Origin: Phycisphaerae bacterium
Lineage (GTDB): Bacteria; Planctomycetota; Phycisphaerae; UBA1845; Fen-1342
DNA: 46,788 bases
Direction of reading: 5' to 3'
NCBI GenBank assembly: GCA_028279405.1
Contig: JANQNU010000086.1
Coordinates: 1 to 46,788, forward strand
Shown: positions 40,158 to 42,828 of the stretch, piece after piece
How positions within the stretch are numbered: the stretch's first letter is position 1
How the letters are laid out: every line of letters begins with the position of its first letter
Made by a program: the position numbers and the translations under genes
Notes under the pieces: generated by a model
Told to the model about the DNA's origin: nothing
Database searches by the model: none
Seen by the model: only the letters and a program-made list of their open reading frames with translations

Positions 40158-40385
40158 CTAGCCGGCGTGCTGCTCGAGCTTGTCCAGGATTTCTTCGTCT
40201 TCGGGGAATCGGCCGGTCTCGTGCTTGCTGTAGATCAGCTCGCCATCGACCGCGACGTCGAAGATGCCGCCATCGCCTTTGATCAGCTCTGACTCGACGC
40301 CATGTTCCTGTCGAATTGCATCCGCCAAACTGGCGGCTTTCGGCAGGTAGTTTCACTGATTGCAGTAGGTGATCGAGATCTTCAC
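40158..40385 (-). CDS. SelW/Rdx-family selenoprotein (CxxU)
   Basis: The 75-residue protein has an in-frame TGA at 40353-40355 read as selenocysteine. The N-terminus is VKISITYCNQU followed by NYLPKAASLADAIRQEHGVE, GGIFDVAVDGELIYSK and ETGRFP, a complete SelW-type thioredoxin-like Rdx protein whose CxxC redox motif is here CxxU. Translation starts at a GTG with AAAGGAGAG five bases upstream, which would be pointless for an 11-codon peptide. The hairpin 40307-40347 is a bacterial SECIS candidate. The rest of the frame is open to a TAG at 40158. selA, selB and selC are not in the window, so incorporation is inferred. Confidence 0.82.
40307..40347 (-). promoter_or_regulatory. Bacterial SECIS-like hairpin
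   Basis: It begins six bases after the UGA. The outer stem is CCUG/CAGG, then a C-A mismatch and CG/CG. After an internal loop, the apical stem CCGCC/GGCGG (40332-40336, 40322-40326) closes the loop AGUUU with a G in position 2. The apical loop starts 22 bases after the UGA, within the range for bacterial SECIS elements. Confidence 0.7.
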
Positions 40386-40502
40386 CCGGACTCTCCTTTG
40401 GCTTGGGTAGAGCGCGACCCGTGCAGCGCGTGGACGGGCACTTACAACGAGTATATCGTTCGGCGCCGCTGCGCCCATGCCCCGCGCCCCGATTTCGCAG
40501 CC

Positions 40503-41226: not shown

Positions 41227-42828
41227 TTATTTGGCCCCATCGAGCTTCAACGCGGCCGCAGGGTTCAGCCGGCAGAGCTTCGCGAACACGTCGTTCATGC
41301 GACCCTGCTGGTCCGGCGTCGGTTTCGGGAGCGCCTTCTTCAGGCATTCGTACTGCTTTTGATACACTTCGGCGGCGAGTTCGGGCTCCCATTGCACGAC
41401 GGCATATTCGGCGATGATCGATTCGAGCCCTTCGAGGATCGGCGTCGCGAGGTTGGGCTTGTTCATGTCCGCGCAGAACCCTGCCAGTGCGAGCTGGGCG
41501 CGGAACTGCTGCCGTCGACTGGACGAACCGTCGGCTGCCCGGGTCAGTCGTTGCAGTGCGTCGGCCTGCTTGGACTCGGTGAGCAGCTTTCGTGCTTCCG
41601 CGACCGCTTCGCCCAGCGCGTCTCCGGCCGCGGCCGAACCGCCGCCGCCACCGCCGCCGAACTCAGACTGCATCTCACCGATCCACGCTTTCGTCGCACC
41701 GTCGGCAAAGCCGGCGCCGTCCTTGAACGTGACCTCGAGCAGGTCCGGCAAGCGGGAAACGAGCGCCAGCGTTTCGAACACGACGATGTGATGGGCCGCC
41801 GCGTACATGGGCCCCATTCCCTTCAACGCGGTGGCCACGAACCGTTGCATATCGAGCCATAGCGGCGTTACCACGAATTGTCCCTCGGCCTGCGTCAGCA
41901 GTTCCGGGAAGTTGCCGCCACCCGCAGCAGTCTCGAAGAACTGTCGGCGTTGCGGATTCGCCGGCGCCGGCAGTAGCCGGTCCTTCGGCGCCTGCAGAAC
42001 GCCGCCAAAGTGGGCGGCGCGCGCCAAGGCGTACGGTCGCGGGTCCTTGTCATTTTGAGCCATCAGGTACTTCGCGACCTTGATCACCGCCTGCACCGCC
42101 GCGGTCGGCGTCGCAAAGGAATCGGGAACGGCCGCTCCCAGGGGCGCGGCAGCGGGGGCCGGGGCCGCGGTAGCCGCTGCCGGGGGAGCAGCGGCGCCGG
42201 GTTGGGCTGGTGGGGCGGCAGGCTGCGCCGGCTGCTCGCTGACCAACGGTCCGACCTTGGTGGCAAGCGCCTTGAACGCCCGTTTCAACGGCAGCGGATT
42301 CGGCGAATCGGGCATGTCCTTGAACGCAGCGTCGAGCGCCTCGACGAAGCTGTCGAACTGTTCAGCGCATTGATGCACCGCTTCCTTCTCACCGGCGCCG
42401 GGCATCCGCTTGCATTCGCCGCCCTTGAGTTCGATCTGTACGAGCAGCTTGTCGATCAGGTACTGGATCGCGTTGTACCGACCATGCGGCGGTTTGACCT
42501 TGGGGAAGCAACCTTCCCAAAACGTCTTGAGAAACTCGGTGTAGCAGCAAAGGCCGGCGCGCAAACCGCGGTAGCCATCCTGCTCGAAGAGGCCGAGCCC
42601 CAGGTAGGTGACGACGAGCAGGTCTTTGGACTTGTTCTTGAGGATATCCGTTGCGAGCGTCACCACCTGGCCCCATTCCGGCTGCTCTCCGGAGAGCGAG
42701 CCGATGCGGTCCAGTTGCGCCTGCAACTCCTCGAAGGCCTCGTCATAGCGAACGGGGTCGCCGACGGGGGCGTCATCTCGTACCGGGTCGCGGCCGAGCG
42801 CGACGATCGCATCATGGTCGACAGCCAT
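41227..42828 (-). CDS. tssA: Type VI secretion system protein TssA (ImpA_N)
   Basis: The 533-residue protein has an ImpA_N domain (residues ~20-140, with PEWGQVVTLATDILKNKSKD, LLVVTYLGLGL, GLRAGLCCYTEFLKTFWEG, and RYNAIQYLIDKL). A long Ala/Pro linker leads to a C-terminal part with a Gly run and a VasL/TssA-like helical end. TssA caps and primes the T6SS sheath/baseplate. No other T6SS gene is in the window (no tssB, C, K or hcp), so the gene stands alone between rsmB and an ABM gene. The start is the ATG at 42828. Confidence 0.8.
   Translation of the reverse strand: MAVDHDAIVALGRDPVRDDAPVGDPVRYDEAFEELQAQLDRIGSLSGEQPEWGQVVTLATDILKNKSKDLLVVTYLGLGLFEQDGYRGLRAGLCCYTEFLKTFWEGCFPKVKPPHGRYNAIQYLIDKLLVQIELKGGECKRMPGAGEKEAVHQCAEQFDSFVEALDAAFKDMPDSPNPLPLKRAFKALATKVGPLVSEQPAQPAAPPAQPGAAAPPAAATAAPAPAAAPLGAAVPDSFATPTAAVQAVIKVAKYLMAQNDKDPRPYALARAAHFGGVLQAPKDRLLPAPANPQRRQFFETAAGGGNFPELLTQAEGQFVVTPLWLDMQRFVATALKGMGPMYAAAHHIVVFETLALVSRLPDLLEVTFKDGAGFADGATKAWIGEMQSEFGGGGGGGSAAAGDALGEAVAEARKLLTESKQADALQRLTRAADGSSSRRQQFRAQLALAGFCADMNKPNLATPILEGLESIIAEYAVVQWEPELAAEVYQKQYECLKKALPKPTPDQQGRMNDVFAKLCRLNPAAALKLDGAK

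Follow-up and report, generated by a model that had tools for sequence, protein, structure and literature searches.

The window, by which we mean the whole stretch of 46,788 nucleotides analysed here, carries a small gene whose reading frame is interrupted early by an in-frame TGA (Table 1). Read on the minus strand from 40385 to 40158, it translates as VKISITYCNQ-U-NYLPKAASLADAIRQEHGVESELIKGDGGIFDVAVDGELIYSKHETGRFPEDEEILDKLEQHAG-stop (TAG), 75 residues starting at the GTG at 40385, with U standing for the TGA codon. An earlier note on this DNA had placed a selenoprotein gene with a TGA at codon 11 at these positions. Both the coordinates and the codon are correct, the TGA being seen in the context CNQ-TGA-NYLP, and we add the strand, which the note did not state. 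Both strands were checked, and the plus-strand frame at the same positions was rejected because it encodes nothing sensible. The DNA 5′ of the GTG, CAAAGGAGAGTCCGGGTGAAG, contains AAGGAG just ahead of the start codon, a good ribosome binding site, as the note had claimed. Substitutions relative to related genes are commonest at third codon positions (in the downstream segment, 694 at third and 302 at second positions), a pattern expected of translated sequence.

Table 1. Features of the SelW-like locus and its neighbours in the window.
Feature	Position	Strand	Remarks
Predicted SelW-like (Rdx family) selenoprotein gene	40158..40385	(-)	75 codons + TAG stop, GTG start
In-frame TGA, codon 11, predicted selenocysteine	40353..40355	(-)	second active-site residue of CNQU
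Shine-Dalgarno-like AAGGAGAG 5′ of the GTG start	40391..40398	(-)	read by eye
SECIS hairpin core: 6-bp upper stem, GUU apical loop, 22 nt from UGA to loop	40322..40336	(-)	alignment columns 20-34
Longer hairpin with lower stem, window copy	40307..40347	(-)	MFE -17.8 kcal/mol; 4-5 of 200 shuffles as good
Small predicted protein, 83 aa	40503-40754	(-)	lipoprotein-like start; next upstream of the SelW-like gene
TssA/ImpA-like protein	41227-42828	(-)	ImpA_N + T6SS_VasJ domains

The 83-residue protein next to the gene had no match in Pfam. Besides the TssA/ImpA-like gene, no further type VI genes were seen among the few neighbours of the SelW-like gene that were scanned. A comparison of the window with named relatives revealed no conserved neighbourhood, and the sole large neighbourhood cluster was discounted as an antisense frame over SelW itself.

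The earlier note had pointed to Rdx/SelW proteins of the TIGR02174 type as relatives. With the TGA read through, the frame does fall in the Rdx/SelTWH families, and all matches lie above the cut-offs: Pfam Rdx PF10262 with 9.2e-21 (74.3 bits against a cut-off of 22.6, residues 2-71), NCBIfam NF041051 with 8.6e-28 (96.4 bits against a cut-off of 88, residues 3-70) and TIGR02174 with 1.8e-16. The Rdx domain covers the whole length of the SelW-like protein. Since this match runs across the TGA, the sequences on either side of it form one domain, which agrees with the note's statement that frame and family sequence continue on both sides. NF041051 (SelTWH_Campy, 'SelT/SelW/SelH family (seleno)protein') is named for Campylobacter, whereas the window gene is most likely planctomycetotal. 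The solved Rdx protein 2fa8 (Atu0228) was matched by sequence with 5e-10, and the UGA aligns with the second Cys of its CTQC motif. Cys-type Rdx proteins of this kind share the domain with the window protein but carry CxxC, Cys replacing Sec, and do not need a SECIS. Eukaryotic selenoprotein W (SELENOW, 2npb) belongs to the same family and has the CxxU motif of the window gene, but the sequence match is weak (E 0.03). In eukaryotes the SECIS is located in the 3′ UTR and is built differently, whereas the SECIS of bacterial SelW-like genes is described as lying just after the UGA (PMC1088965). From the matches to solved Rdx proteins we infer a thioredoxin-like fold.

A sample of the phylum was searched, and a homologue was found in 143 of 392 genomes, nearly always with one in-frame TGA. 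Base-by-base reading confirmed TGA at the CxxU site in 78 genes, including that of the window. At the Sec position, TGC is found in four homologues and a codon for glycine in six paralogues, so that the expectation of Cys or U at this site, voiced in the earlier note, is borne out by the UGA and the four TGC forms. The CxxG paralogues (L054-L057, L059, L061) are second Rdx copies in genomes that also carry the UGA form, and none of them has a scoring SECIS hairpin. Among the genomes for which the Cys form is the only homologue listed, two, G004 and G291, are absent from the selA list. The named relatives come mainly from Phycisphaerae and other Planctomycetota; by record name they also include Deltaproteobacteria, Gammaproteobacteria, KSB1, Eisenbacteria, Acidobacteria, Firmicutes-type bacilli and Actinomycetota. 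This composition makes Planctomycetota the most likely phylum of the window. Across the phyla named, nearly all named homologues have TGA at the column of the window gene's UGA. The note had reckoned with unrelated stop codons in close relatives; the relatives compared instead retain TGA at the same codon.

Selenocysteine insertion depends on the Sec machinery, and the genome search proposed in the note returned all four genes, selB and selC among them. In the genome that holds the window we found selA (1.7e-166), selB (278.6 bits, over the cut-off), selD (2.5e-111) and, for selC, one tRNA-Sec above the gathering score (66.5 bits), which ARAGORN also calls tRNA-Sec with anticodon TCA. The selD gene (L018, G000:C92:136693-137619) has an in-frame TGA of its own near the start of the match (SCAG-U-AGKLP), followed by a stable hairpin (-23.6 kcal/mol), and is itself a predicted selenoprotein gene. 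The SelW-like gene is thus not the sole predicted selenoprotein gene of this genome. Throughout the sample, selA is present in 127 of 139 genomes with UGA-SelW compared to 115 of the 253 others (Fisher 4e-21, kinship ignored). The selA threshold was set near the family cut-off, which gave 242 genomes against 239 at the tool's own. No SelA match above the threshold was obtained in 12 of the 139 UGA-SelW genomes, and many of these assemblies are incomplete.

A SECIS-like stem-loop at the expected distance from the UGA had been proposed in the note. The core of the hairpin found there, CCGCCA-GUU-UGGCGG, lies 3′ of the UGA within a longer stem. The bacterial SECIS model, as described in PMC13188914, has a loop of 3-9 nt with G in one of its first two positions, an upper stem of 4-16 bp, a distance of 16-37 nt from the UGA and an MFE of -7.5 kcal/mol or lower. 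The window hairpin agrees with it in all respects: the loop is GUU, the upper stem has 6 bp, the distance from the UGA is 22 nt, and stretches of 46-56 nt fold with -11 to -18 kcal/mol. As a single sequence, it is only moderately more stable than dinucleotide shuffles, 4-21 of 200 of which do as well (z -1.3 to -2.5), and it does not stand out among synonymous recodings (z -0.8). Stability of the single hairpin was rejected as proof of a SECIS on account of this latter value, and covariation and codon evidence were used in its place. An Rfam search of the stretch gave no match.

We therefore turned to an alignment of 59 genes and the six hairpin pairs. Among these, 93.8% of pair cells are paired, and double changes occur in 33 cells compared to 10.9 in shuffles. 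The covariation score of 0.392 (0.212 shuffled) was reached in none of 500 shuffles, and slid controls were all far lower. One pair, 21-33, alternates between C-G and G-C. The RNAalifold consensus comprises just four pairs with a weak energy, because pair 22-32 is non-standard in 18 of the 59 sequences, and the lower stem of the window hairpin is missing from the family consensus. Codon choice in the loop points the same way. At the G/U codon of the loop, serine is encoded by AGT in 41 of 43 cases, compared to 17 of 241 (7%) elsewhere in the same genes (Fisher 3e-33), and glycine by GGT in 28 of 31 cases, compared to 52 of 473 (11%) elsewhere (Fisher 1e-21); both values are nominal, as the genes are related. 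The loop thus forces AGU or GGU for Ser or Gly in 69 of 74 cases. A covariance model built from the alignment gave 24-61 bits for Sec homologues outside the training set (L043, L081, L112-L114, L116, L120, L124, L128, L132, L141), and on eleven Cys/Gly homologues its best score was 10.9 bits (E 0.63). In a whole-genome search, the SelW-like gene alone was significant. All other matches had E > 0.1, so the hairpin model does not reach the SECIS elements of other genes. The comparative evidence places the hairpin far beyond chance, and covariation supports the proposed SECIS.

Termination at the UGA of selenoprotein genes can depend on selenium. The UGA of the window gene comes very early, and it could be regulatory, yielding a short terminated peptide under selenium shortage and the complete selenoprotein under selenium supply, in which case termination would have a role of its own. 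We consider this very unlikely, as there is no sign of a function for the 10-residue peptide. A decaying Cys-type Rdx gene, or a sequencing error, would require little, TGC and TGT each being one base from TGA. However, the same TGA occurs in dozens of separate genomes from several phyla, the frame is intact on either side, and the loop is under synonymous constraint with a covarying hairpin, so that the comparative data contradict this reading and leave it hardly any probability. That UGA stands for another amino acid here, because the code is reassigned or a suppressor tRNA is present, has only the open frame in its favour, and is contradicted, with next to no chance of being right, by the full Sec machinery with its UCA tRNA-Sec, by TGA serving as the ordinary terminal stop in several homologous genes and by the restriction of the hairpin to UGA forms.

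Hence, with a probability of roughly 0.97, this is a chromosomal gene for a SelW-like selenoprotein of the Rdx family whose UGA is decoded as Sec via SelB and the hairpin. The earlier note had interpreted the locus as a selenoprotein gene, and the gene, its family, the conservation of the TGA, the Sec machinery and the covarying SECIS established here all support it. Judging from these sequence comparisons, the early UGA is almost certainly read as selenocysteine. Known biology suggests how the gene would work. Translation would start at the GTG, a complex of SelB, GTP and Sec-tRNA(UCA) on the downstream hairpin would decode the UGA as Sec, and translation would then continue to the TAG. The expected product is small and thioredoxin-like, has CxxU as its redox pair and would react through a selenenyl-sulphide.

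Among the selenoprotein families of the Sargasso Sea set, SelW-like proteins ranked first in abundance with 48 genes; they are described there as having CXXU and a bacterial SECIS, and their function is called unclear (PMC1088965). A 2006 list for bacterial genomes includes them and gives very few Cys homologues among organisms that use Sec (PMC1794560), and PF10262 appears as a CxxU family in reviews of 2022 and 2026 (PMC9312934, PMC13188914). A paper of 2016 described selenoproteins and a full Sec machinery in Planctomycetes; its text does not name SelW (PMC4807772). As portrayed in PMC1088965 and, under PF10262, in PMC13188914, bacterial SelW-like selenoproteins share with the window gene the Rdx domain, CxxU, a SECIS just 3′ of the UGA whose apical loop contains G, and the lack of a known substrate. 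On these accounts the window gene differs in species and not in kind. The note had called the gene hidden. It is a real gene with an in-frame UGA, but the term is overstated, as SelW-like proteins are already listed as a predicted family of bacterial selenoproteins (PMC1088965, PMC1794560, PMC13188914) and NF041051 matches the gene. It is a further member of a bacterial selenoprotein family known since about 2005.

The SelW-like SECIS appears unusually uniform across bacterial phyla (GCC-NCC-RGU-YUG-G), the apical loop dictating the Ser/Gly codon. Tentatively, and with more doubt than confidence, we suggest that the uniformity may reflect a class of SECIS maintained because SelB specificity is shared, or one that spread when the gene was transferred along with its SECIS. 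A true selenoprotein gene was recognised here by reading sequence alone, and the occurrence of SelW-like proteins across what is most likely Planctomycetota is now documented. The way in which the covarying hairpin forces AGU/GGU is a neat case of RNA structure overriding codon choice.
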